From IMG/VR virus record IMGVR_UViG_3300030333_005233, positions 1-64,000 of that record: a stretch of DNA of 64,000 nucleotides; one strand, 5' to 3'. The DNA comes from a virus. Position 1 is the stretch's first letter, and every line of letters starts with the position of its first letter. Positions 5,028 to 59,618 of this stretch are shown piece after piece. Both the position numbers and the translations under genes were made by a program. The notes beneath the pieces were generated by a model, which did no database searches, had not been told where the DNA came from, and saw only the letters and a list, made by a program, of their open reading frames with translations.

Positions 5028-5866
5028 TATGCTCCCTTTATCTGCGACAGAAGAGTCTTTGTTCTATTTAGTCCTAAATGTTTTTCTGTAATAGCTTTTT
5101 TTATATCATCAAAATTTGTCGTTTTGTTTTTACTAGAATAGTTCAGGTCTATATCTAACTTAAATATATTATTGATAGTTTTTGCTAAATCTTCGTCTTG
5201 GTCTTTATTATCATAGTATACTTTATTACCATTTAGTATGGCTTCTAAAAATACTTGTGAGATTTGTTTCATATCTTTAATTATAACTTCATCATAATTT
5301 TTGTAAAGACCTCTCAACGCAACGGAGGCTGAACATATGTCTACCTTGTCGGCAAGTTCTGACCTTGTAGAAACAACGTGAAAGCTCTTGCTATCTGATA
5401 TATCAGATGTTAAAGAATCTACAATGATTGCTTTATCTATTCTATATTCAAAGTCCGTTTTCATAATTTCATTGTTGTCTGCTGCTGGTAGCATTTTTAA
5501 AACATTCAATCTTCCAATAGTTTGTGGCATAGAGTAATTAGATGTGAATGCAAAAAGAACATCGACATTTTGATTAGAAAGGAATTGTAATAAAAGATCT
5601 AAGTCAACGTTTGAGATATAATCCACATTTAGGATGATTTTTATATTCTTTTCAGGATTCTGCTGCAAGTACGCTATAAGATGTCTATGAAACCTGTGTG
5701 CAGATATTATGACAAATTCTGGATCTATAGTGTCCAGAGCATCAAATACGCTACAATCACCAAGGTTGACTAAACTACAATCATGGTTTAGTTCCTTTAG
5801 GGAGTGATCAAAATACAATGGCTGAGTAGATTCATTGCTTGCATAATTGTCTATCAAGAATTTCAT
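5027..5866 (-). CDS. Unrecognised alpha/beta protein, possibly glycosyltransferase-related, 279 aa
   Basis: The N-terminal half (MKFLIDNYASNES, then EFVIISAHRFHRHLIAYL, then NIKIILNVDYIS) has the look of a Rossmann-like domain such as the N-lobe of GT-B glycosyltransferases or CgeB-like proteins, but no nucleotide-sugar binding motif is evident. GGGGAG precedes the ATG, which overlaps the upstream stop as ATGA. The strict four-base coupling to the nucleotidyltransferase-like gene upstream supports joint expression. Function is inferred only from neighbours. Confidence 0.5.
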   Translation of the reverse strand: MKFLIDNYASNESTQPLYFDHSLKELNHDCSLVNLGDCSVFDALDTIDPEFVIISAHRFHRHLIAYLQQNPEKNIKIILNVDYISNVDLDLLLQFLSNQNVDVLFAFTSNYSMPQTIGRLNVLKMLPAADNNEIMKTDFEYRIDKAIIVDSLTSDISDSKSFHVVSTRSELADKVDICSASVALRGLYKNYDEVIIKDMKQISQVFLEAILNGNKVYYDNKDQDEDLAKTINNIFKLDIDLNYSSKNKTTNFDDIKKAITEKHLGLNRTKTLLSQIKGA

Positions 5867-6603
5867 ATTACTCCCCTTAACTTGTGATATGTTTTTATAT
5901 TATTTATTTTTTTAATAGGGTGTTTATTGTTTATTACTTCTATCTTGTGTTTAGTTTTTATTAATTCGTTTAAGCCCTCAAACAAAAATTTTTGCTTAAA
6001 GTTTTCATTAGATATTATCTTTCTCAAGCAATCTATAACACCTTCATTGTTTAAGTAAATTATTTCTGACCAAGGATTATGCGCACCAAAGCCAAAATGT
6101 TCTATCGCTCCATTCTCTCCAATGTTGACCCCTATCTCTAAATTTTCAAAAAAATCTGACTCTGTGACTATGTAAGATTTGTTAGTGTTTATTTCACTAA
6201 ACGTGTCTGGGTGGATTATTAAACTGCCATCAAATATAAGTACCTTATCATTTGTTATATTATTTAAACAAAGTCGCACACCCTCGCAGGAATTAGATGT
6301 TTCATAAATTTGATTTTCTACTATTCTGATATTACAGTTTCTGTATCTGTTTTTGACATACTTACATACTTTATCTGCGTCATATCCTACACATATGATA
6401 ATTTCGTATTGTGGAAATATCCTATCTATGACATTTATTTGTATGTCTATTAGTTTATGTCTTTGTAATGGGATTAATGGTATGGCCCCATAAGACTTCA
6501 TTCTATACCCCGGAGTATCACATAGTAATACTATGGAAACGAACTCGTCTTTATCGACACTATCTTTTTTAGTTATAGATGTTATATATTTTTGTTTTTT
6601 CAT
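5863..6603 (-). CDS. Nucleotidyltransferase-like protein (degenerate sugar or choline nucleotidyltransferase)
   Basis: The N-terminus resembles NTP_transferase enzymes: SIVLLCDTPGYRMKSYG stands where active enzymes have LAAGxGxRL, followed by PLIPLQRHKLIDIQINVI, matching the usual PKPLIPVNGKPLI region. YETSNSCEGVRLCLN recalls the TNN-YSL motif of LicC-type cytidylyltransferases, and KVLIFDGSLIIHP the metal-binding D-G-D region. The Gly-rich nucleotide loop is altered, so activity is uncertain. The gene overlaps both neighbours by four bases in the cluster of glycan genes. Confidence 0.55.
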   Translation of the reverse strand: MKKQKYITSITKKDSVDKDEFVSIVLLCDTPGYRMKSYGAIPLIPLQRHKLIDIQINVIDRIFPQYEIIICVGYDADKVCKYVKNRYRNCNIRIVENQIYETSNSCEGVRLCLNNITNDKVLIFDGSLIIHPDTFSEINTNKSYIVTESDFFENLEIGVNIGENGAIEHFGFGAHNPWSEIIYLNNEGVIDCLRKIISNENFKQKFLFEGLNELIKTKHKIEVINNKHPIKKINNIKTYHKLRGVI

Positions 6604-11477: not shown

Positions 11478-11801
11478 CTATTCTTCCTCAAAATAGTCTT
11501 CTTGGCTACATATATCAAATTCATTTACTCTAAAAATAATTCTACTATCATCTTTAGATCTGTTTTTAGCAGAGGCGTTTATGGTAATTTTAGTTCCTTT
11601 AGTGGCAAATCTTTCAATTGTTTCAGCACCAGTGTGCCAAGCCTCACAATTTAAATATGTTGGTATTCTGCTTTTTTCGCCAGTACTCTTTGTTCTTCTA
11701 TAATTGTATACAACCACAGTGAATTCTGCAAGCACAATGTCACCAACCATAGATGTTCTTGGGTTTTCTGCTAAATACCCTGTAAAACAACAATTATTCA
11801 T
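11478..11801 (-). CDS. ssb: Single-stranded DNA-binding protein, SSB1
   Basis: 107 residues matching the OB-fold of bacterial-type SSB: MNNCCFTGYLAENPR at the start, LAEFTVVVYNYRRT, YLNCEAWHTGAETIERF and GTKITINASAKNR, ending in an acidic tail (EDYFEEE) like those that recruit partner proteins. GGAG is present upstream of the ATG. It protects ssDNA at the fork and is placed directly downstream of the polymerase genes. A second SSB of similar size is encoded at 41435-41776, so the phage has two. Confidence 0.85.
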   Translation of the reverse strand: MNNCCFTGYLAENPRTSMVGDIVLAEFTVVVYNYRRTKSTGEKSRIPTYLNCEAWHTGAETIERFATKGTKITINASAKNRSKDDSRIIFRVNEFDICSQEDYFEEE

Positions 11802-11850: not shown

Positions 11851-13416
11851 TTAAATTTCATAAACTTTATCTACAATTAGAGAAGTCTCATGATTAGCCA
11901 CTGACCCACAGAAGATTAAATTATTACCTTCATATAATATATATTTATACTTTGCTTTTACCTTTGGAAATACAACAACACTATCTAGTATGCATGTATC
12001 ATCCTCAATTGTTAGAAACGACATAACCTTTCCCTTAGATTCCCCTTTGGATATTGTGTAGTCCGACATCCTTTGTATGTTACCAACCACGCAAAGATTC
12101 TTACCCTTTTTACCATTGATTATGTCTTTGCAAGTGGTGTTTGCAGCGGAAGTATCTGAGACTTCTATCTTTGTCATAGTAACGGGGCATCCTAAAAACC
12201 TTGTCTCTTGTTCTATGATCCAGCTTGGATCGTCTTCTAATGAATATGGTGGATCTAATAAGAGTTGTATCTCATTCTCAACTGCCTGTTTTCTTTCTAT
12301 TTTATGAGTACCGCCACCTTCTTTTTTAGTTGGTGCTAGGTCTTTCAGGCAGGATATAAAATCTTTCCATTTCTTACTTTCATAATTTGTTTGTATCCAC
12401 TTTTGTTCTGCCTTAGTAAGTAGACGGTATATATCATAATCATACAATGCTTTATTTCTAGAAACCTTGTCCTGAAAGTCTCTGAAAAACCCTATGGATG
12501 CTAACGCTTTGAAAGACGTTGATGAAATCTTAGGACCAAAGAATAGCAATATTTCTAGCCACGTAAACTTTGTCATAGGTTTTTTTAATTCTTTTTCTAC
12601 CTCTTTAATAGACTCAACCACCTTGTCTCCAGTTTTGCCAGTTAGTGATTTTATGTCTTTAATTCCAAAGTATATTTTCTTTTTCTTGGCATTGAACTTA
12701 ATATTAAAGTTTGCAAGACTTGGCGTTCTAGCTTCTATATCAAATAATTTAGCCTCAGAAAATAATTCATAGACTTCTTGGTGTGGATCTTGTTTTTCAT
12801 TTGCATAATAAAGATAAGACAAGAAGAACTCTTCTGGACTATGCGCTTTTTGGTATGCGCTCCAGTAAGAACAAACTGCATATGAAACACTGTGAGACTT
12901 GTTGAATGCGTATCTAGATGATTTTTCAATCCAACTAAATATTTCTTCTGCTGTTTGTTTGTCTACTATGCCTGTCTTTTTAGCGCCAGCAATAAATTTC
13001 TTTTTTACTTTAGCCATAAGGTCTGCTTTTTTCTTACCAATGGCTTTACGTAAAACATCTGCTTCTTGTAGATCAAATCCAGCAATTTTTTGAGCAATAC
13101 GCATGGATTGTTCCTGATAAACTAGAACTCCATAAGTCGGAGCTAGAATTTCTTCTAGTGCTTCGTGTAAATAAGTAACTTCTTCTCTGCCGTGTTTACG
13201 GTCGATAAAATGTTGACTCATAGACTTTCCATCTACAAACGCTTTTAGACATCCGGGCCTAATAATAGCAATTAATGCAGATAGTTCTTCAATGTTGCTT
13301 GGCGATAATTTTTTTGACCAAGATTTACCAAGGTTGCTTTCTAGCTGAAAGACGCCCTTAGTTTTACCTTCTGAAAATAGTTGCCAAGTTTGTTTGTCTT
13401 CATATTCATTTGACAT
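11851..13416 (-). CDS. dnaE: DNA polymerase III alpha subunit (DnaE type), C-terminal half of a split polymerase
   Basis: 521 residues from ATG 13416 (an upstream TTG is less likely). It begins where intact DnaE continues after the palm: LFSEGKTKGVFQLES at residues 13-27, then LSALIAIIRPG, YGVLVYQEQSMRIAQ, AGFDLQEADVLRKAIGKKK and FNKSHSVSYAVCSYWSAYQKAH, all characteristic of the C-family fingers and thumb-side region. The last 100 residues (NLCVVGNIQRMSDY, then MSFLTIEDD) are the OB domain. The catalytic aspartates are in the other half at 14076-15644. It overlaps the exonuclease gene by 11 bases. No intein residues are visible, so assembly must be non-covalent if functional. Confidence 0.9.
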   Translation of the reverse strand: MSNEYEDKQTWQLFSEGKTKGVFQLESNLGKSWSKKLSPSNIEELSALIAIIRPGCLKAFVDGKSMSQHFIDRKHGREEVTYLHEALEEILAPTYGVLVYQEQSMRIAQKIAGFDLQEADVLRKAIGKKKADLMAKVKKKFIAGAKKTGIVDKQTAEEIFSWIEKSSRYAFNKSHSVSYAVCSYWSAYQKAHSPEEFFLSYLYYANEKQDPHQEVYELFSEAKLFDIEARTPSLANFNIKFNAKKKKIYFGIKDIKSLTGKTGDKVVESIKEVEKELKKPMTKFTWLEILLFFGPKISSTSFKALASIGFFRDFQDKVSRNKALYDYDIYRLLTKAEQKWIQTNYESKKWKDFISCLKDLAPTKKEGGGTHKIERKQAVENEIQLLLDPPYSLEDDPSWIIEQETRFLGCPVTMTKIEVSDTSAANTTCKDIINGKKGKNLCVVGNIQRMSDYTISKGESKGKVMSFLTIEDDTCILDSVVVFPKVKAKYKYILYEGNNLIFCGSVANHETSLIVDKVYEI

Positions 13417-14086
13417 ATAAGTTCCCGTTTGCAAACGCTTTGTCTAATTCAATTTCCTGATAAACTGCACGATGAGTTTTCAATAGCTTTATAAAGATAT
13501 TAGCAGTATCTTTAACATCTTGCAATGCGTCGTGAGCATTTTCTTTACTTAGTCCCATTCTTTCTCTAAGAGTATCCATACTAATTGATCTAATACTAGG
13601 ATCTCCCTCAGTCCACATGTGCATATTATCCATAACGTCACACTTATGTATTCTACTAAAAATCTTTTGTTGATTTCTGCCTTCATCAAAAGGTCCATAC
13701 TCCTTACATAAACGATTGATAATAATCATATCAAACCCAATGATATTAAAGCCAACAGGAATAGGATTGAAAAATGGGTCTTTTTTCCAATTGTACTTGT
13801 CTACAAAGGTGCAGAATTTTTTCCAAACTGATTTAAGAGTTGGAGCTTTGGATAAGTCTTCTCTATTTTTACCAGTAACTTTTAATGCTCCGTCTTCAAC
13901 TGGATCTAAACCTAGTCTAATGGCCTTTTCGTCATCAAGTATAGGTTTAATTTCACTATTAAATGTGCCTTTTACAGATAGATGCCTTCCATCTAAGGCT
14001 AAAGCAGCTATCTGTGTTGGTTGTGTTTTGTGTGGGTTACGACTTCCTGTTTCAAAGTCAAATACAATGTAGTCTCTATTTGCCAT
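13406..14086 (-). CDS. DEDDh 3'-5' exonuclease (DnaQ/epsilon-like proofreading subunit)
   Basis: 226 residues. Metal ligands appear as D10 and E12 in VFDFETG, D119 in GFNIIGFDM, and H185 with D190 in NAHDALQDVKDT, the DEDDh arrangement. Such enzymes remove mispaired 3' ends; C-family polymerases usually rely on a separate epsilon-type protein. This gene lies exactly between the two halves of the polymerase and overlaps each by 11 bases, which strongly suggests the three products form one complex. AAGGAA precedes the start by seven bases. Confidence 0.9.
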   Translation of the reverse strand: MANRDYIVFDFETGSRNPHKTQPTQIAALALDGRHLSVKGTFNSEIKPILDDEKAIRLGLDPVEDGALKVTGKNREDLSKAPTLKSVWKKFCTFVDKYNWKKDPFFNPIPVGFNIIGFDMIIINRLCKEYGPFDEGRNQQKIFSRIHKCDVMDNMHMWTEGDPSIRSISMDTLRERMGLSKENAHDALQDVKDTANIFIKLLKTHRAVYQEIELDKAFANGNLYVK

Positions 14087-15644
14087 CAGTGATTTCCTTT
14101 ATCTTCATAAGTTTGTCTAGAAGGTTAATTCCTAGAACATCGAATTTTACATGACCCAGAGCTTCTAGATCAGACATTTCCAATCCTGCAATTTTTTCCA
14201 CAGATCCTTTCTGTTTGACCATAGGGCAAACTGTATGTAGCGGTTCTTTTGATATCACTACTCCTGCTGCGTGTTTACCCTGAGTTTTAAATGTTCCTTC
14301 TATATCAATAGCTTGTTGAAAGTATTGAGCATAATCTCCATCAAGTTTACCTTCATCCGTAATGTGGCAGAAGTCTCTGAGATCGTCTGGGCGATTCATC
14401 AATGTCCACTTTATAATTGACCTATCTTCTTCATCCATCTCTGCCAACTGGTCAGATACATCTGCTTCATTGGGTATACTCTTTGTTATAGCATTCATCT
14501 CACTAAAAGAACAAGCATCATTTATTCTTAAAACTTCTTTTATAGCACTTCTTCCTTGCAATCTACCAAAAGTTAACATCTGACTAACATGCTCATTACC
14601 ATATTTCTGTTTTAAATAATCTATAACATCATCTCTACGTTTACCCGGAACATCCATGTCAATATCTGGTAAAGACACATTACCACCAGTATTTCTACCA
14701 GCATTGTAAAATCTTTCAAACAATAGGTCATACTCTACTGGGTCAATTTTCGTAATACCTATCAAATAAGATACAAGACATCCAGCAGCAGACCCTCTTC
14801 CCGGCCCAGCCAAGCAGCCCATATCTTTTTCTACGTGTCTAATAATGTCTTGAACAATTAGAAAGTAACCAAACAAGTCTGCATTTCTAATTACTTCTAA
14901 TTCTTTGTGGAACCTATCCCCATATATTTTTTGTTTACCCTTGTCGCCACCCACCTTTGCGTGAAGTAGTCTTTTGTATCCTTCTCTAGCCATGTTTGTA
15001 AGATATTGCTCTTGTGATAGACCATCTGGACATACAAATTTAGGAAGTATTGGCGGGCTTAGTATGTCATAGTCTTCACACGAATTATATATGTACTCTA
15101 ATTCATTAGTTACTTTACCTTCTGTAATACATTTATTATCTTTTGTAAAGTATTCTAGTACATCTTTCTCTAACGTATTTGACCTAATTTTACTTTTTAT
15201 TTTAGGCAGTGTAGTTTTTAACGCTGAACACAATAGTATTCTGTGTAGCTTTGCGTGTTCTTTTTTTACGTAGTAAGATGGTTTGATATTATCCTTAGAT
15301 TTATGTAGTGCAACCAGATTATTTCTACTAACAATGTCTTTAGCCACGCTGCTAGGCATGTTACCGTTCTCATCTGTCATTGATACCATCTGTATAAGAT
15401 CGTGCCATCCGTCTTTATTTTTAGCATATACAGTAGTGTTATCAAATGAACACCCAATTATAGGCTTGACGCCAACCTTTTTACACGCTTGATGGAAAGA
15501 CACTGCGCCTGATATAGACTTATAATCTGTTATTCCACACGCTGGATAGTCGTTTTCCGCACAAGCTTTAGCTAGCTCATGTGGTTTTGAAAATCCTTTA
15601 AGTAGACTGTAATGTGTAAAATTCTTCAACGGGAACCAGTTCAT
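14076..15644 (-). CDS. dnaE: DNA polymerase III alpha subunit (DnaE type), N-terminal half of a split polymerase
   Basis: 522 residues. Residues 1-70 match the PHP domain start, but its first metal motif is degenerate (NFTHYS in place of VHSDYS). The palm has LAGPGRGSAAGCLVSYLIG at 278-296 and the catalytic SLPDIDMDVPGKRRDDV at 324-340 (D327, D329). KTQGKHAAGVVISKEPL and the third aspartate D502 in VKFDVLGINLL lie at the end, after which the gene stops. The remaining polymerase is encoded at 11851-13416. AGGAG precedes the ATG by five bases. This is a C-family replicase, unlike the B-family enzyme of T4. Confidence 0.92.
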   Translation of the reverse strand: MNWFPLKNFTHYSLLKGFSKPHELAKACAENDYPACGITDYKSISGAVSFHQACKKVGVKPIIGCSFDNTTVYAKNKDGWHDLIQMVSMTDENGNMPSSVAKDIVSRNNLVALHKSKDNIKPSYYVKKEHAKLHRILLCSALKTTLPKIKSKIRSNTLEKDVLEYFTKDNKCITEGKVTNELEYIYNSCEDYDILSPPILPKFVCPDGLSQEQYLTNMAREGYKRLLHAKVGGDKGKQKIYGDRFHKELEVIRNADLFGYFLIVQDIIRHVEKDMGCLAGPGRGSAAGCLVSYLIGITKIDPVEYDLLFERFYNAGRNTGGNVSLPDIDMDVPGKRRDDVIDYLKQKYGNEHVSQMLTFGRLQGRSAIKEVLRINDACSFSEMNAITKSIPNEADVSDQLAEMDEEDRSIIKWTLMNRPDDLRDFCHITDEGKLDGDYAQYFQQAIDIEGTFKTQGKHAAGVVISKEPLHTVCPMVKQKGSVEKIAGLEMSDLEALGHVKFDVLGINLLDKLMKIKEITDGK

Positions 15645-19406: not shown

Positions 19407-20444
19407 TTACCCCGGAGCTTCATAAAATCCAATATCAAAGCCATCTCTGGTACAATCTTTGATAGTCTTTTCCATTCCGTGCTTTGAGAGGTATTCCTCT
19501 ATAAATATACACATATTTTTATCTGTATCAGGCCAGTTATTCTTGCAATAATGGCATAAATTCTTGCATTTCCAGTGTTTTCTGGACGGGTCTAGTGGTT
19601 GCGGATTTACATTTTCCCTTATCTCTGCTACCCGCTCTTTTAACATGCCTAAAAACCTTTCTTCGTCTTCTGGAGAAAAACAAAGGCTAAATGGACATGG
19701 GTCTGGCTTGCCCTCTGAATTTTTATAGAAAAATATACTCATAATTCTATTAGGGAACTCTGGATATAGCTTAGAAATTGCATAATAATACAGTAATAAT
19801 TGGGGGTCATTTTCTAATTTTTTATAATCTTTTACCTCTCCAGTTACCCAATCCATCCGTCTACCAGTTTTCCAATCTACTGCTTCTATTGTGTCTTCGT
19901 TCACTAGTGTAACTAGGTCAATAGTGCCTTTTATTGCTAGTTGTCCTTGAAATTTCTTGCCATCTTTCTCGTACTCAAATTTAGCCCATTCTTCGTCTAT
20001 TGGTATATCAAAGTGAGGTTCAGGAAAATGTATGTTTCTTAGCCTTGGGTCAAATTGACCATCGCTGTGTGTTAAAAATGTCCATACTGTTTTGGACACA
20101 TCTTCAACATCGCCACTGTAAAATTTATTATGAGAGTTCTTAGCATAAGCCTCTACGCTTAAACCTACTAGAACATTAACTAACTCTTTAGTATGTAGAT
20201 CTTTTTTTTCGCACTTAAATTTTCCTATTGCGTCATCATTTACTCTAAGATATTTTGCGTGTGGATGATCTTGTTCGTATTTTTTAAGACCAGCTAAAAC
20301 TTCCATAACCTTGTGTGCCATTGTCCCCATGTCAGCTTTTTTACCGCTTTTAGATCTATGACCTAAGACGTATGTGATAAAATATTGCATCTGACAATAT
20401 TCATAGTTATTATAACTTGATGATCTTACATAAGTAACTAACAT
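19407..20444 (-). CDS. RecB/Cas4-like PD-(D/E)XK exonuclease with putative Fe-S cluster
   Basis: ATG 20444 has GGAGTG at seven bases. 345 residues with the RecB-nuclease motifs: GTMAHKVME (H44), KGTIDLV (D176), EAVDWKTG (D190, K192) and DPQLLLYYYAI (Q215). One Cys near the N-terminus (C17, YEYCQMQY) and a C-terminal cluster (WKCKNLCHYC and a later Cys) have the arrangement of the Fe-S staple in AddB and Cas4-like nucleases. It probably processes DNA ends for recombination with UvsX. Four bases of the start region overlap the dNMP kinase. Confidence 0.82.
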   Translation of the reverse strand: MLVTYVRSSSYNNYEYCQMQYFITYVLGHRSKSGKKADMGTMAHKVMEVLAGLKKYEQDHPHAKYLRVNDDAIGKFKCEKKDLHTKELVNVLVGLSVEAYAKNSHNKFYSGDVEDVSKTVWTFLTHSDGQFDPRLRNIHFPEPHFDIPIDEEWAKFEYEKDGKKFQGQLAIKGTIDLVTLVNEDTIEAVDWKTGRRMDWVTGEVKDYKKLENDPQLLLYYYAISKLYPEFPNRIMSIFFYKNSEGKPDPCPFSLCFSPEDEERFLGMLKERVAEIRENVNPQPLDPSRKHWKCKNLCHYCKNNWPDTDKNMCIFIEEYLSKHGMEKTIKDCTRDGFDIGFYEAPG

Positions 20445-21148
20445 GAAACACTCCATAGTTCTTGTATTGAAGAAAGATCTGTACACATATCATTTATTGA
20501 GCCATTATTGTCTATAACATAGTCAAATTTTTTCCAATCAAAATTGCTTTCATCTAGAGCGCATTCACATGGATGGTTGTCTGTGTAAATATCCCTAGTC
20601 AATCTGATTACAGTCCCGCCATTTTCGTGTATAGCTTTTACTTCATTAGGAAATCTTACGTCTGGAATAAGTGCTATCTCAGAACCCTCTGATACTATCT
20701 TCTTAATAGTAGCAGAAACCCATATATCATCTTTGATTTTTCTCATAACATCTGTGCCAAAGTATTGCAAGAATTGTCTAGCAGTCATGCCATTGTATTG
20801 TGTCTGTGTATTTTTGTCGTTGTCAGTTCCGTAGACCTGCTTAGGATTTAAATCAAACAAATCAATACACAGTTGTTTAAGACAGTCTGCAAAATGATAG
20901 ACTTTTATATAAGGCCACAACTCTCTTTCGGCATAATTTACATACGACAGGTCTTTCCTTGTTACGTCAAATACGCCCCATCCACCTAAGCCATTTTGAT
21001 CTTTAGTTTTGATTTCTAGCTGTCCATATTTGTTAATAATAAAATCATCAATCATATTCATGGTTTTTAAAACCCTGCCATTTATGAAGTTGGCAACAGT
21101 ATTTTTACCAGCCTGTTTCCTGCCAGATATTCCAATGATCTTAGTCAT
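20438..21148 (-). CDS. Deoxynucleoside monophosphate kinase (T4 gp1-like)
   Basis: 236 residues. A P-loop is present at the N-terminus (GISGRKQAGKNTV), followed by features of phage dNMP kinases: DCLKQLCIDLF, TARQFLQYFGTDVMRKI, ALIPDVRFPNEVKAI and GGTVIRLTRD. The enzyme phosphorylates dNMPs to dNDPs, here complementing dUTPase, dCMP deaminase, ThyX and NrdJ. Its ATG shares a base with the stop of the primase gene (TAATG), so translation is coupled. Confidence 0.85.
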   Translation of the reverse strand: MTKIIGISGRKQAGKNTVANFINGRVLKTMNMIDDFIINKYGQLEIKTKDQNGLGGWGVFDVTRKDLSYVNYAERELWPYIKVYHFADCLKQLCIDLFDLNPKQVYGTDNDKNTQTQYNGMTARQFLQYFGTDVMRKIKDDIWVSATIKKIVSEGSEIALIPDVRFPNEVKAIHENGGTVIRLTRDIYTDNHPCECALDESNFDWKKFDYVIDNNGSINDMCTDLSSIQELWSVSC

Positions 21149-22173
21149 TAATATGTTCCCTCTAATTTTGAAAGTATATCTTTTTTAATCTTTTTAACAC
21201 TCATATCGCCAACGTCTTTTTGTGACAATTGTGGAAAGGTTAATTTATACATTCTTCCTAGCTGCCTTTTTATTTGCACCTTACATTCTCTTCCCGCTTG
21301 ATCATTGTCTGTTAGTATTATTAAGTGTGTTACAGGCAGGCTCAATAGCTTTTGTTGTTGCTGCTCAGTAATTGTTTTACCAAATATGCTGACAACATTC
21401 TTAACTCCAGCTTCGTATAGTCTCCAGACATCTCCCTGCCCTTCTACGATGTACAGGCACGATGTTTCTGAGGCTCTCTTAACCGCTCTGTGATAGTTAT
21501 AAAAACAATACCTCTTGTCAAACCCCTTTGGAGAAAATAAAAACTTTGGCATTCTATAATCTCGTATAGACCTGCCTATGATACCTATTAAATTTTTACC
21601 ATCATCGTCATGTATTGGTATAATCGCTCTCTCTTTCATTATACCTTCTTGGTAACAATCTCCAACGCCAAAATATTTCATAGTCCTTTTGTTATAACCT
21701 CTAGTGTAGAAATATGGTGACGGAATATCTACATCTAGATCTAAAGAAATTATTTTATGTTTATGTGGTTTTTCTTTTTTATTTACAAGATTGACAACTT
21801 TGTATAGTAAGTCCTCTGTTTCTTCTTCTTTTGTTTCTTCTTTTGCTTTGTTGTACGTTCTGTTTATATTGAGTATTTTACACGCCCAATTTAGAGCATC
21901 TATAAACTCTACTTCTCGTCCCTCTTGTTTAGATAGAACGCCCATGATAAGACCAAACATATCATTTTTATACTCATCTTGACAATCTCTTGTCCAGCAT
22001 TTCCATATCCCTTTCTGTATTGAAAAAGAAAATGCTCTTGGATTATCGCTACCCTCATGCACTGGGCATGTAGAATATATATTGTCGGAAAATACTTCGC
22101 ACTTCATTCCAAGTTCTTGAAATACAAGTTCTGCATTCTCATTAAGCTTCTGTTTGATCTGCTGCAAATTCAT
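21148..22173 (-). CDS. DnaG-type DNA primase
   Basis: 341 residues. An N-terminal CHC2-type zinc domain is seen as C36-P-V-H39 with C59 and C64. The TOPRIM domain has LYIVEGQGDVWRLYEAG (E244) and LIILTDNDQAGRE (D289, D291), the acidic metal-binding motifs. FGVGDCYQEGIMKERAIIPI is the preceding RNA polymerase basic domain region. It is shorter than bacterial DnaG (about 580) and lacks a helicase-interaction domain. It overlaps the helicase gene by 32 bases, and the pair make up the primosome. Confidence 0.9.
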   Translation of the reverse strand: MNLQQIKQKLNENAELVFQELGMKCEVFSDNIYSTCPVHEGSDNPRAFSFSIQKGIWKCWTRDCQDEYKNDMFGLIMGVLSKQEGREVEFIDALNWACKILNINRTYNKAKEETKEEETEDLLYKVVNLVNKKEKPHKHKIISLDLDVDIPSPYFYTRGYNKRTMKYFGVGDCYQEGIMKERAIIPIHDDDGKNLIGIIGRSIRDYRMPKFLFSPKGFDKRYCFYNYHRAVKRASETSCLYIVEGQGDVWRLYEAGVKNVVSIFGKTITEQQQQKLLSLPVTHLIILTDNDQAGRECKVQIKRQLGRMYKLTFPQLSQKDVGDMSVKKIKKDILSKLEGTY

Positions 22174-23611
22174 TTGATAATTTCTTCATGGCGTCATTGT
22201 TAACTAAACCAGTGTCTCCAACTGGCTGGTTTTTCATTTCATTTCTAGTTTGTAATTCTATTAACTTAGCGTGTGCGCCTTGCATCTGCATGTTAATATA
22301 ATCACCGTCGTCTAGACCAGCACCGTGCCTAGACACAATAGGTACTAGTTTTCTGTTTCCTGAGTTTGGCCCATCTTCTGCAAGTTCTTCTGTAGATTTA
22401 GCTTTGAATATAGTAAAAGAAGTACATAGCCATATGAGTCGGTCTGAGCCACTAACAGCGTCAGTACTTTCTTTAGTGATACCATCTCGATTTAATTGCA
22501 CAAATGATAGACAAGGTATGTCTAGCTTAACGCATAAATTATGAAGAGAGGTAATTTGAAATCCTAGAGCCTGATATTCTTGAATATTATTCGTTATTGA
22601 TGAGGATGACATCAGTTTGAGATAATCATAGATGATTAGACATTCATTTGTTTTGCCTGTCTCATCTGTTTTTACTTCTTGGACTATCCACCGCTTGATC
22701 ACATTTAGTATCTGTTCAAACGGTTTGCCAGCTACACTTACATAACTATATGGTATATTAGATAGTTTATCTATTGATTCTTGCACCTTATCTTGTTTAT
22801 CTGAGTCTTCTGTGAACCTGCCTGTTGCCACTTCATTTATAGATACTCCACTTATATTAGCAATCAAACGGTTCAAGTGATCTTCTTTTGACATCTCCGT
22901 ATCTAGAACTAAGACGGGTATGCCAAGAGAGGATACGTTAAGGGCAACATTGTCAGCGAATACTGATTTACCAACTTTTGGTCTTGCAGATATAAGGTCA
23001 ACGCACTTACGTCGTAAGCCACCGCCAATAGCTTCATCGTATTTTGCGAATCCTGTCGGTACACCAATGATATCACATTTATTTTCGGACAAGAATTGAA
23101 CATAGTCTTCTACTCCACTTCCAATTTTTTCTGGATGTTCCCCGCCATCGTCTTCCCTTAGAAAATCTGTAACAGGATCTTCTAGCTTTTGAATAATATC
23201 ATTGACACTTTCTGACCCTGTAACGCCATCCATGTCTTTGCTGATTTTGCTAGTTAGTTTTTTTATATTCCTTGCAAACTCAAACTTTTTTATCTGCAAC
23301 GCAAAATTAAAAACATTATCCTTATCAACAGGAAAGCTATTTAAAGAGTTGATATATTTTAACTCTTGTTGTGTATTGATGGTGTCAAGTACACCTATAT
23401 GCTTTGCAGTAGATAATATAGAAGGTATGTCAACTTTATGTTCATTTTTTATAACTTGCTCTATACATTTAAACAATACTTGATTGTTGACATTGCCAAA
23501 GCTTTCAGTTGTTATAAAGTCAGATATAGTAACATACCCATCTACACCGTATTGCAACAGACCTGCTAATACGGCTCTTTCAGCGCCTATATCTAGTAGT
23601 TTTTCTTGCAT
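22142..23611 (-). CDS. Replicative DNA helicase, DnaB family
   Basis: 489 residues. The N-terminal domain begins LLDIGAERAVLAGLLQYG, as in DnaB. The RecA-like core has Walker A SARPKVGKSVF (K215, S216), VLDTEMSKEDHLNRL, Walker B CLIIYDYLKL and LCVKLDIPCLSFVQLNRDG. TGFAKYDEAIGGGLRR precedes Walker A. It should unwind DNA ahead of the split DnaE polymerase. Its ATG shares a base with the stop of the preceding gene (TAATG). A short acidic C-tail ends the protein. Confidence 0.92.
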   Translation of the reverse strand: MQEKLLDIGAERAVLAGLLQYGVDGYVTISDFITTESFGNVNNQVLFKCIEQVIKNEHKVDIPSILSTAKHIGVLDTINTQQELKYINSLNSFPVDKDNVFNFALQIKKFEFARNIKKLTSKISKDMDGVTGSESVNDIIQKLEDPVTDFLREDDGGEHPEKIGSGVEDYVQFLSENKCDIIGVPTGFAKYDEAIGGGLRRKCVDLISARPKVGKSVFADNVALNVSSLGIPVLVLDTEMSKEDHLNRLIANISGVSINEVATGRFTEDSDKQDKVQESIDKLSNIPYSYVSVAGKPFEQILNVIKRWIVQEVKTDETGKTNECLIIYDYLKLMSSSSITNNIQEYQALGFQITSLHNLCVKLDIPCLSFVQLNRDGITKESTDAVSGSDRLIWLCTSFTIFKAKSTEELAEDGPNSGNRKLVPIVSRHGAGLDDGDYINMQMQGAHAKLIELQTRNEMKNQPVGDTGLVNNDAMKKLSNEFAADQTEA

Positions 23612-24018
23612 TATCTACCTGTACACCTATCGCACCTATAGTATTCGCCATACACTATACTAGCATTAACCTTGGTCTTTTTACCACAAACATGACAAGT
23701 TACATCTTTTTTTTGTGGTGGCAATCTATTTCTTGGTGTTCTCTTGGTTTCTGGAGTTTCTACTTCTCTATACTCTCCAGTGTCTGTCCATGTATTTTCT
23801 CTAGCACGAACAGGCTGTTTTCTACTTTGGCCTTTAATTGAACTAGGTTTATTTTTATGCATTGTAAAATCTTCTTGCACTCTTTGTGGTTTTTCTTCAA
23901 ATTCTTCTACAATGTGTGGTGGCATTGTAGTAGATTGATCAACAGAGCTGGTAAGAATATCCAACAATTCTTCTCTTTCATCAATCGTTAGTCCTTCTAC
24001 AAAGTTTTTTAGATTCAT
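23611..24018 (-). CDS. Small protein with C-terminal zinc ribbon, 135 aa
   Basis: The first 45 residues are acidic and helical (FVEGLTIDEREELLDIL). A long Pro-, Arg- and Thr-rich linker follows, and the last 30 residues form a zinc ribbon: CHVCGKKTK and YRCDRCTGR. It sits between the helicase and an unknown coiled-coil protein with coupled start and stop codons, so a role at the replication fork (for example an adaptor or loader) is plausible but not shown. GGGGAAAAG precedes the start. Confidence 0.55.
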   Translation of the reverse strand: MNLKNFVEGLTIDEREELLDILTSSVDQSTTMPPHIVEEFEEKPQRVQEDFTMHKNKPSSIKGQSRKQPVRARENTWTDTGEYREVETPETKRTPRNRLPPQKKDVTCHVCGKKTKVNASIVYGEYYRCDRCTGR

Positions 24019-24500
24019 GATCTTTTCCCCTTTTCCATTAAAATGTCTGCCTTACGTTTCAGTTCATACACTTTGCCCTCCAACGATTGGACTCTTGAAT
24101 GAGCAACTTCCCTGTAATGGTCTACTGCTGCTGCATATTCGTCATTAACAATAATCAATTGCCTTCTCATATCGTGTTTTGTATAGGGGCTAAATTGATC
24201 GTAGTTCTTAGCTACCATCTTGTCTAGTTTATCATTGCACCAATCCAGTGCGATCTTCTGCATATTTAATTCATCCTGTAGATGCGTAGAGTAGCTATAT
24301 AGTTCATATGCCCAAGTAAATAACTCGTCTTTAGTGAGAGTCTGTATGGTCTCTTTGCCACCGTTAGCACACCTATGCCAATCCTCATTAAACTTCTTGT
24401 TAAACCTAGCATTGCTAGCATTTAAAAAATCACTAACCATAGCTTTCAAGTCAGCTAACTGCTCATTCGCCGTTTTCAATTTGTTCTCTCCATTGCTCAT
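24015..24500 (-). CDS. Unrecognised helical protein, 161 aa
   Basis: Predominantly helical with probable coiled coils at the N-terminus (KLKTANEQLADLKAMV) and over the last 50 residues (SRVQSLEGKVYELKRKADIL). No family recognised. The start overlaps the nuclease gene by 38 bases and its stop overlaps the next start by four. Position in the replication operon suggests an accessory protein, possibly a helicase loader, but there is no sequence proof. Confidence 0.5.
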   Translation of the reverse strand: MSNGENKLKTANEQLADLKAMVSDFLNASNARFNKKFNEDWHRCANGGKETIQTLTKDELFTWAYELYSYSTHLQDELNMQKIALDWCNDKLDKMVAKNYDQFSPYTKHDMRRQLIIVNDEYAAAVDHYREVAHSRVQSLEGKVYELKRKADILMEKGKRS

Positions 24501-24888
24501 CTGTGTCGGAATACTTTAGTGTGATTAAATCAATTTTATTCTTTTTGCACCATTCTATTTTATCTTCATCTTTAGCTTGTGCAAGTGCAAAATCTGCTTT
24601 GTTTTTATGGAAGAATGGTGTGTATTCATAATGCTGCTGCCCATGAACCTCTATAGCCAACATAATCTGTGGTATATAAAAATCTAAATACAATACGCCT
24701 TTCCTGTGTGATTCAGTGCTTCCGGGTAGTTTGACCTCTTCTAAGATTCTGTAGGAATGGAAAATCTGTTTCAGTATATTCCTTGCTCTGATGTGATACT
24801 TTGATCTCTTTCTTTTGTCGTTTGCAGCAACAGAATAGCTTGTTAAATTCCAAGCGTACTCTCTGCCATTTAAACCTGTAACTTTCAT
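24463..24888 (-). CDS. Small PD-(D/E)XK-type endonuclease
   Basis: 141 residues. The motif VLYLDFYIPQIMLAIEVHGQ (D about 72, E about 82, with H and Q following) resembles the core of VSR/DUF559-like nucleases, followed by HYEYTPFFH and a DEDKIEWCKKNKIDLITLKY strand typical of that fold's end. Related small nucleases recur in phage replication modules. AGAGG is six bases upstream of the ATG. It overlaps a possible small membrane ORF (24713-24952) at its 5' side. Substrate unknown; a repair or junction role is more likely than homing given the absence of DNA-binding modules. Confidence 0.6.
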   Translation of the reverse strand: MKVTGLNGREYAWNLTSYSVAANDKRKRSKYHIRARNILKQIFHSYRILEEVKLPGSTESHRKGVLYLDFYIPQIMLAIEVHGQQHYEYTPFFHKNKADFALAQAKDEDKIEWCKKNKIDLITLKYSDTDEQWREQIENGE

Positions 24889-24952
24889 TAAAAACCTCTA
24901 TAATAATTTTAGATAGTAATATGCCGCAGCATATCTGTAATATTGTTATCAT
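24713..24952 (-). CDS. Possible overlapping small membrane ORF, 79 aa (doubtful)
   Basis: The ATG at 24952 shares a base with the UvsX stop (TAATG), as at genuine junctions in this genome. The 21 residues encoded before the nuclease start are hydrophobic (MITILQICCGILLSKIIIEV), then the frame runs for 165 bases across the nuclease gene in another frame. The overlap is unusually large, so only a short translated leader may be real. If it is not translated, the 63 bases before the nuclease hold nothing else I can identify. Confidence 0.3.
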   Translation of the reverse strand: MITILQICCGILLSKIIIEVFNESYRFKWQRVRLEFNKLFCCCKRQKKEIKVSHQSKEYTETDFPFLQNLRRGQTTRKH

Positions 24953-26064
24953 TAAAATAGTTCCTTAATCTTTTCATATACAAACGCAGACACGTCTGGG
25001 TTTTCATTTAAAAACTCTAGCGTGTTATTAGCGCCTTGAAATTTAAAAAACCTCTCAATATCTTCTTGCTTATCTGACACCTTGTTGTCAGCAAGTATTT
25101 TCTTAATAGTTGGATGTTCCAAGTCATCTATAGCGCATTGTATAGTATACCACGCACCAGCTGTTTTAATTAATCTGAACTCACAGGCGATTTGCACAAC
25201 TTCTTGTGTTTCGTCAAGTCCAATGCCATACCTAATCCAACTTTCTGCTGTACTATTTGGTGTACCGCCAGCACAAGATGTTTTAATATTCCAGTTTGCA
25301 ATTTGACCAACGTGTGGGCCAGTGTCTTTTGGAACTTGCCAGCGACCACGATGAGTGATGACCATGTTAGTGCCAGCTTGATATTGTAACATGTTGCCAC
25401 AGTCTGCCATCTTCGCTGGAGCGTATGGCGATCCACCAGTGTTTGCGATGTTATGAGTGATACAAACTAGGATTGTTTTGTTCTTCATTAGTGTGCCACT
25501 AATACGCTTGAAGAACATAGACAGAAGTCTTGGCAGAGCATTACGCACACCAGTTCTGACCTCTCCATCTAGTTCTTGTTGTGGAACCATGTTAGATAGT
25601 GAGTCTGCAATAATTAGACACCCCGGATCATTATTAATGTAATATTCTGTAATATTTAAAAATTCTTCTGCTGAAAGTATCTTATCGTCTGTAGACTGTA
25701 CAATTAGAATGCCTTCAGGGTCTAAGCCTTTGATGCCATCGAAGTTTTGCTTTGATAATCGTCCCTCAGTATTGAGATAGATGACACGCTTACCTTTGGC
25801 TTGACATTTTGCTGCAAAGTGCAAGGCTGTTGTTGTTTTGCCAGACTTTGGATCTCCTGTCATTACAACTACAGAACCTTCTCGTAGCCCACCGCCTAGA
25901 GCAATATCTAGCGATGGGGATACGCCAATAACTTCTAATCTATTGATTGTTTCTAACACGTCTGTACCAGTGCTTACAACGTCACCATATTTGCTAACAA
26001 CTGAGTTGCTTACAACGTCAGTGTCAAACTTGCTTGATGTTTTTTTCTTTTTAACTTTGCTCAT
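24952..26064 (-). CDS. uvsX: RecA/UvsX-family recombinase
   Basis: 370 residues. The core has ALGGGLREGSVVVMTGDPKS before GKTTTALHF (P-loop G70-T77), VIYLNTEGRL, CLIIADSLSNMVP (Walker B) and ILVCITHNIANTGG, with DNA-binding loop regions RTGVRNALP and CAGGTPNST. The pattern is closer to phage UvsX/RecA-like proteins than to bacterial RecA. It would catalyse strand exchange for recombination-dependent replication and repair. The N-terminus is Lys-rich. It begins four bases inside the previous gene and is followed by the nuclease module. Confidence 0.88.
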   Translation of the reverse strand: MSKVKKKKTSSKFDTDVVSNSVVSKYGDVVSTGTDVLETINRLEVIGVSPSLDIALGGGLREGSVVVMTGDPKSGKTTTALHFAAKCQAKGKRVIYLNTEGRLSKQNFDGIKGLDPEGILIVQSTDDKILSAEEFLNITEYYINNDPGCLIIADSLSNMVPQQELDGEVRTGVRNALPRLLSMFFKRISGTLMKNKTILVCITHNIANTGGSPYAPAKMADCGNMLQYQAGTNMVITHRGRWQVPKDTGPHVGQIANWNIKTSCAGGTPNSTAESWIRYGIGLDETQEVVQIACEFRLIKTAGAWYTIQCAIDDLEHPTIKKILADNKVSDKQEDIERFFKFQGANNTLEFLNENPDVSAFVYEKIKELF

Positions 26065-38971: not shown

Positions 38972-39301
38972 TTATATCATATCAGAAGGACTTATGCAAG
39001 GCTTATCTAAATCCGATTTTGATTGTTTGTCTTTTAAAAGTATCTGAGTGCCAATCTTGCTTAATAATAACAAGAAAAGATCCTCATTGCCTGACTCTAT
39101 CATGACGCCTTTAACCATCTCCAAAGTTTCAACAACACAACTTTCTCTAGAAAGCATTTTTAATATATTTGTTAATCCTTGCATTGATTGTTCATCGTAA
39201 TCGTCTATGGAGATATCTATAATAAGATCGTCTGAATTTTTCATGACTAGGTATGATACAGATGCAAGTACTTCTTCGTCTTCTCGTTCATTCTCGTCCA
39301 T
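38972..39301 (-). CDS. Unrecognised acidic protein, 109 aa
   Basis: Acidic N-terminus (MDENEREDEEVLASV) and leucine-rich helical middle (LTNILKMLSRESCVVETLEM, LFLLLLSKIGTQILL). No membrane segment is convincing. It overlaps the glycosyltransferase gene upstream by 14 bases. No function can be assigned. Confidence 0.45.
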   Translation of the reverse strand: MDENEREDEEVLASVSYLVMKNSDDLIIDISIDDYDEQSMQGLTNILKMLSRESCVVETLEMVKGVMIESGNEDLFLLLLSKIGTQILLKDKQSKSDLDKPCISPSDMI

Positions 39302-40346
39302 ATAGAATACCCCTTATTGTATTAGCTGAATTCTCCCAACTAAATTTTTTGGCAGTCTCAACTCCGTTTTGATTAGATCTGTCTTTATTCTTATAAACTG
39401 CTCTCATGCATTCAGCAAACTCATCTATTTGTTTAGTTTGCATTTTAGCCCAACTGCCAATGCGACCATGAAACCATTTGCCATCATATGCTAGTTCTTT
39501 TTCTGGAGCTTCTACTAAATATGAATTTTTACTATTGCAAAATGAAGAATGGGCAGAGCATTTGGTGGCTATAACAGGCTTATTGCATGACATCATTTCT
39601 AATAATTCTAAATTCCATCCTTCTGCCCTAGAAGGGAATATTCCACAATCTGTTTTAGCCATAATATTATACACTTCTTGGTGGGTATTTACCCTATCAA
39701 TAAAGCGAATTTTATCACCTAATTTGCTATCAAGATATAGTTTTTTCCACTGCTGGTCTTCTTCTGGCGTCATAAATGGATTGCTTGTCATCATCCATAG
39801 TTCTACATTGTCATTAGTGTCAAAAGCCTTATTAAATATCTTATATAATATATCATGACCTTTTCTGATTTCCCATTTACCACAGTTAAAAAATATAGTT
39901 TTTTCATTAGTAGATGGTTCACATGGCTTGAATAATTTAGAATCTACGCCAAGTGGCACTACATCAACAGCTGGTTTAATATTGTTTGTAGTGCAGACTT
40001 CTTTAGCCCACTCAGAACACACGAATAGTCTATCTACTGAGTTTAGATGATGCCTTTCTTGTGGTGCAAATTCGTCAAGTTCAAAAATGGGAAAACCTAT
40101 ATGTTCTCCACGCCCAACGAACTGTGACATATCGTGCTGATGCCATATGCGAAGACACGGATCTTCTCGCTCAAACAATTGTGCGTTATTGATGCAGCTG
40201 CTGACTAAATCAGCATCTTCTTGTGTTGTTACCTGTGGTTGTCCAATAGGCCACAAAGAAACTGCACGATGCTTATTCAAATGTTTAGTTATATTTAAAC
40301 CTGCAACTCCATAACCAAGAGTATTTATAGGAGAAATAATATTCAT
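39288..40346 (-). CDS. GT-B glycosyltransferase (GT4-like)
   Basis: 352 residues. N-lobe NIISPINTLGYGVAGLNITK; interlobe HLNSVDRLFVCSEWAKEVC and VDVVPLGVDSKLFKP; C-lobe NCGKWEIRKGHDIL and FPSRAEGWNLELLEMMSCNK, the donor-binding region of GT4 enzymes. It resembles the enzyme at 9828-11477 in the way the donor side is built but is much shorter. It lies away from the glycan islands, in the operon headed by the 41333-41360 promoter, with a deoxyribosyltransferase-like gene next to it. Confidence 0.8.
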   Translation of the reverse strand: MNIISPINTLGYGVAGLNITKHLNKHRAVSLWPIGQPQVTTQEDADLVSSCINNAQLFEREDPCLRIWHQHDMSQFVGRGEHIGFPIFELDEFAPQERHHLNSVDRLFVCSEWAKEVCTTNNIKPAVDVVPLGVDSKLFKPCEPSTNEKTIFFNCGKWEIRKGHDILYKIFNKAFDTNDNVELWMMTSNPFMTPEEDQQWKKLYLDSKLGDKIRFIDRVNTHQEVYNIMAKTDCGIFPSRAEGWNLELLEMMSCNKPVIATKCSAHSSFCNSKNSYLVEAPEKELAYDGKWFHGRIGSWAKMQTKQIDEFAECMRAVYKNKDRSNQNGVETAKKFSWENSANTIRGILYGRE

Positions 40347-44345: not shown

Positions 44346-45026
44346 TCAGTCTCCAAACTTATAATCAAATAGTTCTAGATCCACTGCAAATTTTTCTGAA
44401 AACTTTTCTACATCTTTCTTGGTGAAATACTCAGTATAGTGCTTGTGTACGCTTTGATTTTTATGAGACAGTTTCCAATCTTCTTCTGTGGCATCTGGAT
44501 TGATCTTTAGCACCACCTCTTTAAAATCTTCTTGAATATTTTCAAACTTACCAACAAAGTCTACTAATAGATTGGAACAAGTTTTGTGATCATAAAACCA
44601 ATGGTATTGATGTTGATTAAAATGATGTATATATTTTTCAATAGGTGTGTTATAAATATTATTAGCTAAAATCGTATTCTCTGGAGACAAAGGTTCATCA
44701 TTATCAATCTTTCTTTTCCAAAAAAAATAACTAGAGATACACCTTTCAAAAGGGTTTCGCACAAAGCCAAAGCTATAATACGAATCCCAATCTAAGTTGT
44801 TTTCTTCGAGATATTCTTTAGCTATATCGGCATATGCATGTACGCTTATACCAACCCTTGTAGTTGAGTCTTCTAATAATTTTGGATCTCCGGGTTGATT
44901 TTTCTTCATTGTTTGGAATATTCCAGTATTCAACGTTGGCCTACCAAAAAGTTGTTTTTTTATAGAATTACCTGCGGTTTTAGGGTTGTGTATAAAAATA
45001 TATTTTAAGTCATGAGATCCTACCAT
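44346..45026 (-). CDS. Sulfotransferase family protein 2
   Basis: 226 residues from ATG 45026, with GGAG five bases upstream; a GTG two codons earlier is possible. Motifs match its neighbour: YIFIHNPKTAGNSIKKQL and YYSFGFVRNPFERCISSYFF, ending YTEYFTKKDVEKFSEKFAV. The ends of both proteins share ELFxYKFGD. Divergence between the two is large enough to suggest different acceptors. It overlaps the GT fusion gene by seven bases, tying sulfation to glycan assembly. Confidence 0.85.
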   Translation of the reverse strand: MVGSHDLKYIFIHNPKTAGNSIKKQLFGRPTLNTGIFQTMKKNQPGDPKLLEDSTTRVGISVHAYADIAKEYLEENNLDWDSYYSFGFVRNPFERCISSYFFWKRKIDNDEPLSPENTILANNIYNTPIEKYIHHFNQHQYHWFYDHKTCSNLLVDFVGKFENIQEDFKEVVLKINPDATEEDWKLSHKNQSVHKHYTEYFTKKDVEKFSEKFAVDLELFDYKFGD

Positions 45027-47233
45027 TTGCACTCCTTCTTATTTATAAAATGATTTCTTAATCGTGTATTGTGTTTGTCTAAGAATCCAGACTGCTCCAA
45101 TGCCAATATCATTTGCTTGTATGCGTTGTGATATGATGTATTGCTTTTAATGTAGTATGGCCCAGCGTGTGAAATATAATTTCTTAAATCTTTATCGTCA
45201 TGCAGAAGTTGTATGTTATTAGACAAGTCTCCAATGTTATTTTTTGCGCAAGTTAATCCAGTGACACCATTTACAATAGACTCATTGACACCTTGAGAGG
45301 CATATCCTACACACGGAGTTCCGCACGATGAGGACTCTGCAAAAACCATACCAAAAGCCTCTTGTAAACTTGGCCCTACAAATACATCAGCGGCAGAATA
45401 TAAATAAGCTATCATTTTTCTATCTTTTATAAAGCCTAAATTTACTATATCATATTTTAGCTCTTCTGGGCTTATTATACCATTTCCAAAGGTTACTATC
45501 ATGCAATTATCAATTTGTGTTTCATTTATAGCTCTCATGGCGTCATTTGTGCCTTTTCTTTCGTCAGCCAAGTTTGTAGCACCTATCAATATTATAAACT
45601 TATCTTTTGGTAGGTTAAATGTATCTCTACATGCATTTTTTTCATATGGCCTAAACATATCTGTATCTATGCACGGCTTAACGCAATACGCTTTTTGATT
45701 TGTAGTTTTTTCAACTAAATTTACCATGTGATAGCTATTACAAAGAATAGTAAAATTTTCGTGTTGTATCAATTTTCTTTTTCTGTGGTAATGTGAATTA
45801 ATCTGATCTTTATCTAAAAATGGATAATTAAATAAGTCTGGACAAGTAGACGTACATTCTTTAAGAAATTGATTACAGTGTTTGCTGTATGGGCATTTAC
45901 CTGTTATTAGCCACTCGTCGTGCATTAAAAAAAATGTTGGATATTTTTCTACTACCTGCTCTAAAAAATCTAAATCATTTTGCAAACTATGCACATTTCC
46001 ACAAAACACAAAATCTGGGTTTATAGTGTCTATTTTTGATAATGTTTTTTCAACGTCAAAGTCTGCCCTTTGTGAACTAATTTCTTCAGTACCCTGAACG
46101 GGAGAAATAAAATGATTAGCCATTTGCAGTGCGTGACAAAAGTTTTTGTGGGCAATTCCAGCACCGCATTCAAAACCTACATCATTAAAAGTAACAATAT
46201 TAAAGTATTTAGGTCTTGTTTCATCGCCACTTTGTGGCACGTTTATTTTGTATTTATTTGCTAGCTTGTCTCTGTGGCTGTATAGCTCATCTACAAACTG
46301 AAGCTCAGATGTTTTTTGTTTTTCATGTTGAACATGATATGACACTGGGTGTGATATAATTTTTATCTTAGCAGATTGCGCTGCAAACCTAACCCACAAA
46401 TCGTAGTCCATGCTCCAATGTAAAGTTTTATCAATGTATCCCCCTGCTTTCTCGTAGATAGATCTTGTAAAAAATACTTCAGGTTGATAGAAAAAATCTC
46501 CCTTCATCCACTTATTATCTAGATCTAGCATATCTTTAAGACATAATTCTTCTTTATCGTATAATGGCATACATTTAGAGAATATGCTATCGTTATCTGC
46601 GACATGACAAGTAGCTGCAACCATGTCAACTTTATGATGCTGGAATGTTAGGCTAATTGCCCATAAAGCATCCTTACAAAAGGAGTCATCGCTGTTTAAC
46701 CAGCACAGTATATCTCCAGTTGCTAACTTAAAACCTTTTTCTATTGCTTCAGATTGCCCATTGTCTTTCTCACTAATTATAATATCTATCTTATCTTTGT
46801 ATCTATTTATTATTTCTAAGCTGTCATCAGTAGAGCCTCCATCGACAACAATAATTTCTTTGTTTGGATAGGTCTGTGAAATTATGGACTCTAAATTTTC
46901 TTTTATAAAATTACCATAGTTATAATTAGGTACAACTATAGATATCTTAGGTATAGATTCTTTTATGCCTTTAATTTCATTTGCCAGTGGTATGTCTAAT
47001 ACTTCTTCTTCAAACTTTGGTATCAAATCTTCTTTTCGCTTCTTTGCTCCAAAGTATCGCCCATATTGGTGATAATGGTAATATAGCCTATATCTTTCAG
47101 GTATATCATTTTCAGAACAGTAAGGCTGATAAAAATCATCTAAATCTGGATGATTGATAATACTTCTGTAAAATTCTTCATCAAATTCTTCATCAATTTC
47201 ATTATGCTCATAAAATTCTTCAATGCTAATCAT
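45020..47233 (-). CDS. Bifunctional GT2-GT4 glycosyltransferase fusion
   Basis: 737 residues. After an acidic N-terminal 90 residues, a GT2 domain spans about 95-310: ISIVVPNYNYGNFIKENLES, KEIIVVDGGSTDDSLEI, DILCWLNSDDSF (the DxD) and HWSMDYDLWVRFAAQ. A GT-B domain of GT4 type spans about 345-720: VKPCIDTDMFRPYE, LIGATNLADERKGT and GPSLQEAFGMVFAESSSCGT. One chain may add two sugars in succession. Both active sites look intact. It lies upstream of the sulfotransferases in the same operon. Confidence 0.88.
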   Translation of the reverse strand: MISIEEFYEHNEIDEEFDEEFYRSIINHPDLDDFYQPYCSENDIPERYRLYYHYHQYGRYFGAKKRKEDLIPKFEEEVLDIPLANEIKGIKESIPKISIVVPNYNYGNFIKENLESIISQTYPNKEIIVVDGGSTDDSLEIINRYKDKIDIIISEKDNGQSEAIEKGFKLATGDILCWLNSDDSFCKDALWAISLTFQHHKVDMVAATCHVADNDSIFSKCMPLYDKEELCLKDMLDLDNKWMKGDFFYQPEVFFTRSIYEKAGGYIDKTLHWSMDYDLWVRFAAQSAKIKIISHPVSYHVQHEKQKTSELQFVDELYSHRDKLANKYKINVPQSGDETRPKYFNIVTFNDVGFECGAGIAHKNFCHALQMANHFISPVQGTEEISSQRADFDVEKTLSKIDTINPDFVFCGNVHSLQNDLDFLEQVVEKYPTFFLMHDEWLITGKCPYSKHCNQFLKECTSTCPDLFNYPFLDKDQINSHYHRKRKLIQHENFTILCNSYHMVNLVEKTTNQKAYCVKPCIDTDMFRPYEKNACRDTFNLPKDKFIILIGATNLADERKGTNDAMRAINETQIDNCMIVTFGNGIISPEELKYDIVNLGFIKDRKMIAYLYSAADVFVGPSLQEAFGMVFAESSSCGTPCVGYASQGVNESIVNGVTGLTCAKNNIGDLSNNIQLLHDDKDLRNYISHAGPYYIKSNTSYHNAYKQMILALEQSGFLDKHNTRLRNHFINKKECKW

Positions 47234-55779: not shown

Positions 55780-55796
55780 GTTTTCTAGAACTTCTC

Positions 55797-57072: not shown

Positions 57073-57364
57073 TAAAAAATACCTTTGACTCCATGTTTTT
57101 GTCATCTATAAATAGATCATACGGCGGTTTACCAAAATGCAAATTATGATATTTTACAGACCACTTTTTAAATTGTTCCTCAGTTAAAGGTCTAAAATCT
57201 ATTCCACTGACAGTGCCACGAGCAGTCCAATAGGTAATAGTATTTCCTTCGTCATATAATTTATTTATTTTTGCTATCCTAGAATATATGGGCTTTGCAC
57301 TTTCATAGTTTCTTTCTTCTTCAAGATAGCATATTGTATCGTCAATATCAACGTAAATGTTCAT
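57065..57364 (-). CDS. Small HAD-type phosphatase
   Basis: 99 residues. IYVDIDDTICYLE supplies D6 and D8 of the HAD nucleophile motif, TITYWTARG motif II and DLFIDDKNM motif IV. There is no cap domain. Small HAD proteins like this occur in capsule and LPS clusters, with roles such as sugar-phosphate dephosphorylation. It overlaps the aminotransferase by eight bases, fitting the sugar-nucleotide pathway. Confidence 0.75.
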   Translation of the reverse strand: MNIYVDIDDTICYLEEERNYESAKPIYSRIAKINKLYDEGNTITYWTARGTVSGIDFRPLTEEQFKKWSVKYHNLHFGKPPYDLFIDDKNMESKVFFND

Positions 57365-59615: not shown

Positions 59616-59618
59616 TAA

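Follow-up and report, generated by a model that had tools for sequence, protein, structure and literature searches.

The stretch of viral DNA analysed here, hereafter the window, comprises positions 1 to 64,000 of the IMG/VR record IMGVR_UViG_3300030333_005233 and makes up most of that 68,426-bp record, which is a fragment. On its minus strand lies an operon in which the catalytic alpha subunit of DNA polymerase III (Pol III alpha, DnaE), a C-family polymerase, is divided between two genes, with an exonuclease gene separating the halves:

14076..15644, minus strand: N-half of DnaE, with a degenerate PHP domain, palm and thumb; 522 amino acids; D327/D329 (PDIDMD) and D502 (KFDVLG)
13406..14086, minus strand: DEDDh 3'-5' exonuclease, probable proofreading subunit; 226 amino acids; D10, E12, D119, H185 and D190
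11851..13416, minus strand: C-half of DnaE, with fingers, HhH (weak Pfam match) and OB fold; 521 amino acids

An earlier note, made from the letters of the window, had proposed these three open reading frames (ORFs) with an 11-base overlap at either junction, and the coordinates as well as both overlaps were confirmed: the N-half and exonuclease genes share ATGGCAAATAG at 14086-14076, and the exonuclease and C-half genes share ATGTCAAATGA at 13416-13406. All three start codons are preceded by Shine-Dalgarno-like sequences (AGGAG, AAGGAA and GGGAA); the C-half start is the ATG, a TTG 18 bases upstream being less likely. The exonuclease/C-half junction gave no signal of RNA structure, and a scan for promoters and terminators gave no excess over shuffled sequences. 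The near-identical 11-mers at the two junctions (ATGKCAAATRR) were considered as the repeats of a cassette, an idea that was dropped as the relatives do not keep them.

The domain matches are distributed between the genes in the order expected of an intact enzyme. The N-half matches the PHP domain (PF02811, 9.5e-17) and the palm (PF07733, 7e-69), the C-half matches the fingers (PF17657, 7.5e-50), with HHH_6 (0.0062) and OB (0.093) both weak and below the cut-off, and the exonuclease matches RNase_T/DEDDh (PF00929, 2.4e-13). In comparison with the solved structure, the N-half aligns to residues 9-563 of Escherichia coli alpha and the C-half from residue 592 onward, so that the halves cover adjacent, non-overlapping regions, as the earlier note had predicted, and are therefore two parts of one enzyme; about 28 E. 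coli linker residues lie in the gap. The cut falls where the palm passes into the fingers in the E. coli structure. AlphaFold models of the halves reached predicted local distance difference test scores (pLDDT) of 88.9 and 89.1, and the best PDB match of each was a bacterial Pol III alpha (Foldseek 8.8e-21 for the C-half, whose model aligns over its full length). The C-half stops close to the OB fold, and no tau-binding region was recognisable in it. The PHP domain of the window has lost its metal motifs and is about 100 residues shorter than in a sister clade; in that clade the HxHSHYSLLDG- and TDHG-like motifs are mostly kept and the N-half is longer (about 620 amino acids). The description of the PHP domain as degenerate thus holds for the window but not for the family as a whole, and because of this loss it is most likely the separate exonuclease that carries out proofreading in the clade of the window.

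In order to survey related phages, we used each half, and also alignments, as queries against IMG/VR, each scan retaining the best 80 matches; this gave several hundred loci and, after removal of repeats, 181 distinct viral loci with all three genes complete. The order N-half, exonuclease, C-half, as three separate genes, was found in all 181, at about 44-89% identity, and no fused polymerase was found among them down to about 44% identity. The catalytic aspartates D327, D329 and D502 of the N-half, the exonuclease residues D10, E12, D119, H185 and D190, and the finger motifs of the C-half are each invariant (182/182). The ratio of nonsynonymous to synonymous substitutions (dN/dS) among close pairs was 0.046 for the N-half and 0.032 for both the exonuclease and the C-half, values that are approximate since the median dS of 1.2-1.7 is near saturation. 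Pairwise distances of the three proteins correlate with r of 0.92-0.94, whereas r did not exceed 0.065 when the labels were permuted 500 times, which indicates that the N-half, exonuclease and C-half share their history.

With a probability of about 0.85, we propose that this operon encodes the replicative C-family polymerase of a tailed phage, working as two polypeptides that are not spliced, with a dedicated DEDDh proofreader encoded between them. The N chain holds the three catalytic aspartates together with the PHP domain, palm and thumb, and the C chain holds the fingers and probably the HhH and OB fold. The overlaps suggest that the three genes are translated from one message. Intein N- and C-parts (IntN and IntC) flanking the cut were not found, and therefore the two chains most likely assemble non-covalently, presumably at the palm/fingers boundary and into one active site; together they would have DNA polymerase activity. 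The exonuclease would supply the proofreading activity and probably docks on the PHP domain, in the way that epsilon does in E. coli. All three products may form one complex. The earlier note's view of one polymerase made of two chains and an exonuclease from a polycistronic transcript, with no split intein at the cut, is backed by homology, selection, gene order and the lack of another polymerase. A stricter version, in which the enzyme is an obligate, never-spliced N-alpha/exonuclease/C-alpha heterodimer replicase and the nuclease gene is held in the middle because its product bridges the halves or orders their assembly, is possible but seems to us rather doubtful. Several points weigh against the proposal. 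The record holding the window is a fragment, and every member of the split family is an uncultured contig. No sliding clamp was recognised, whether DnaN in the 16 larger contigs of relatives described below or a gp45-type clamp, for which the controls gave no signal either. Finally, no fused sister of the split family was found among the best 80 matches of the scans, and fused relatives at a greater distance may lie beyond them.

In regards to the origin of the split, a tree of 16 members of the split family and 13 other DnaE enzymes places the family in one clade with 100/100 support. A large clade of uncultured phages shares the cut, so the simplest account is a single fixation in the ancestor of that clade; strong purifying selection has maintained the split since. 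A parallel is Rossellomorea phage phiT1 (L389, PV767480, 2101-5383), whose DnaE is annotated as two genes (gp20 and gp18), the break falling in the same linker. It differs from the window in having intact PHP motifs and, between the genes, a 49-amino-acid ORF that is not an exonuclease. The two-gene form could then be older and shared with phiT1, the exonuclease gene having been added later, and a joint clade of phiT1 and the split family is not rejected (approximately unbiased test, p 0.177). However, in the best tree, several branches of which are long, phiT1 falls outside the family clade, among fused phage and bacterial DnaE, and its gap holds no exonuclease, so that we regard this older shared origin, which concerns only how the split arose, as unlikely.

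The junctions, which are hot spots for insertion, themselves suggest how the gene was first cut. At least 300 bp of extra sequence were present at one junction in 63 of the 181 loci. Endonuclease VII-like genes lie between exonuclease and C-half in 22 loci, and the other inserts comprise HNH genes, methyltransferases and glycosyltransferases (the latter two labelled by eye) and unknown ORFs. In the one insert read base by base (L002; PF02945, 1.1e-12) the gene shares a few bases with each neighbour, and both flanks are whole. Because endonucleases still invade these junctions, the original cut was probably made by a mobile endonuclease gene, or by a cassette bearing the exonuclease, inserting into the linker; in the window operon no free-standing endonuclease gene is found at the cut. 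Free-standing homing endonucleases insert likewise in T4-like phages, where nrdA of Aeh1 (with mobE) and gp43 of phages 25 and 44RR are essential replication-related enzymes that have been split and whose halves still work together (PMC2988022). Those cases concern a ribonucleotide reductase and PolB in single phages, whereas the split in the window is fixed in a large clade. In two further relatives, L359 and L361, a LAGLIDADG gene at 5315-6166 breaks into the N-half immediately ahead of the PDIDID motif; a group I intron around that gene was considered, and no Rfam match was obtained.

It might also be that the split enzyme is functional without being the main replicase, serving for instance in repair while a host enzyme copies the phage. 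In certain jumbo phages, a split minimal Pol III alpha does sit beside PolB, according to Iyer et al. 2021 (PMC7824862), and the lack of a recognisable tau-binding region would fit such a role, as would the failure to find a phage clamp (the gp45 search had no positive control). Against this, the 68,426-bp record yielded one PF07733 and one PF17657 match, as did every one of 16 larger contigs of relatives (108-224 kb), which thus hold no complete DnaE elsewhere, and neither PolA, PolB (PF00136) nor DnaN gave a recognisable match in those 16 contigs. Terminase was present in 8 of the 8 larger contigs tested. The split enzyme is accordingly the sole recognisable DNA polymerase in contigs of up to 224 kb, it is strongly conserved, and it lies beside a single-strand DNA-binding protein (SSB) gene, immediately downstream of the C-half gene on the same strand, and near the genes for primase, DnaB helicase and UvsX:

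11478..11801, minus strand: SSB gene, not part of the polymerase (PF00436, 2.3e-08)
19407..26064, minus strand: rest of the replication module, with exonuclease, deoxynucleoside monophosphate kinase, primase, DnaB helicase and UvsX-like recombinase

We therefore consider it improbable that the enzyme is not the main replicase.

A covalent rejoining of the halves by trans-splicing of a split intein, yielding a mature enzyme of a single chain, is known for cyanobacterial DnaE (PMC3919608), and some relatives have split inteins within the N gene itself. In five relatives' contigs (L047/L181, L180, L326, L349 and L381) the N gene is cut a second time at GPGRG|S, where an intein N-part (TIGR01445, 1.5e-08 in L326) and a C-part are present:

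L047, 4343-6308: N-half with second cut and split intein
L180, 1573-4337: N-half with second cut and split intein
L326, 3960-7036: N-half with second cut and split intein
L349, 3972-7061: N-half with second cut and split intein
L381, 4811-7102: N-half with second cut and split intein

A nuclease-like ORF with weak TnsA-like/Phage_endo_I matches lies between the intein parts in L180, L326 and L349. These relatives would have a three-gene polymerase, with trans-splicing expected between two of the three products. As inteins are so readily detected at GPGRG|S, the method does find them, and the main cut is without one: only 17-43 residues follow D502 in the N-halves, which leaves no room for an IntN, the C-terminal intein motif HN[CST] precedes the fingers in 0 of 181 C-halves, and no intein model matches the window proteins P0001 or P0003. 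The claim that no split intein is visible therefore stands for the N/C cut but does not extend to the whole N gene in the relatives, and trans-splicing at the main cut appears very improbable.

Some relatives (L112, L344 and L299) do show isolated frameshifts or a stop in frame. Even so, mistakes in sequencing or assembly and gene decay are rejected as explanations of the split, since 181 distinct loci, drawn from many samples, repeat the arrangement with a whole gene between the halves, the active sites are invariant and dN/dS is 0.03-0.05. The in-frame TGA of L112 (6011-6013) replaces the Cys289 codon of the N-half and reflects either an error or recoding; as there is nothing more than this TGA, a second split of that N-half was rejected, and L344 and L299 look like frameshifts.

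Compared with known systems, the two-chain polymerase shares with bacterial DnaE (E. coli; TIGR00594) its domain order, catalytic aspartate triad, finger motifs and fold, as well as a separate DEDDh proofreading exonuclease. It differs in being two genes and two chains, in the missing linker, in a C-half that stops close to the OB fold and has no tau-binding region that could be recognised, and in the shortened, degenerate PHP domain. The group 2.2 jumbo phages also have Pol III alpha as two proteins, and the portion of the account available mentions no intein (PMC7824862); according to the same source, however, the enzyme is minimal, its genes are far apart and PolB is adjacent, whereas in the window two nearly full-length halves flank the exonuclease gene within a single operon, and no PolB (PF00136) was found in the 16 contigs of relatives. 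Cyanobacterial split DnaE likewise consists of two genes, but its products are joined by trans-splicing and its halves are cut within the finger region, while the cut in the window lies between palm and fingers and carries no intein. The relatives cut at GPGRG|S resemble the fractured genes with split inteins of Dassa et al. 2009, as cited in PMC6892783; the main N/C cut differs from these in lacking an intein and, as far as the window goes, an endonuclease. No other split phage DnaE was found in the open literature searched, a scope outside which two relevant older papers fell. The jumbo-phage, cyanobacterial and phiT1 precedents lower the novelty of a split DnaE, and the earlier statement that the arrangement is unusual for a C-family enzyme needs qualifying by the first and last of these. 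Profile extents of the PHROG pairs phrog_13169/phrog_12219 and phrog_7513/phrog_11165 hint at other cut sites in phage DnaE, and suggest cuts just before PDID and after PHP.

The host of these phages is indicated by few observations. The operon is present in a contig of a SAR202 metagenome-assembled genome (L302, VFHP01000007.1, 152,655 bp), the sole match in genome_contigs; this is a weak hint of the host, or a phage contig binned with that genome. In two relatives (L070, 5497-6480; L072, 5710-6783) a prepilin-like protein with the look of DUF1559, judged by eye, is encoded between exonuclease and C-half, with ThyX-looking ORFs beside it. Such a protein is typical of Planctomycetota, and it hints at a planctomycete host for that subclade. 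The terminase of one relative has its best match at 27% identity to Bacillus phages, and there is thus no close named relative. The window also encodes a ribonucleotide reductase with a B12-dependent-type domain, a rIIB-like protein (47874-48740; PHROG 609, 2.3e-62) and, at 39288-40346, 45020-47233 and 54847-63948, several glycosyltransferases and nucleotide-sugar epimerases together with an aminotransferase and a C-methyltransferase, a load of sugar-modification genes that is large for a phage.

The findings indicate that a bacterial-type replicase remains serviceable when palm and fingers are separated, and that a widespread lineage of phages relies on such an enzyme, apparently as its sole polymerase; the position of the cut marks a natural break point for separating the domains of Pol III alpha. 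Given that one family holds an unspliced cut, a split-intein cut and fresh endonuclease insertions, the stepwise break-up of an essential gene by mobile endonucleases can be compared within it.
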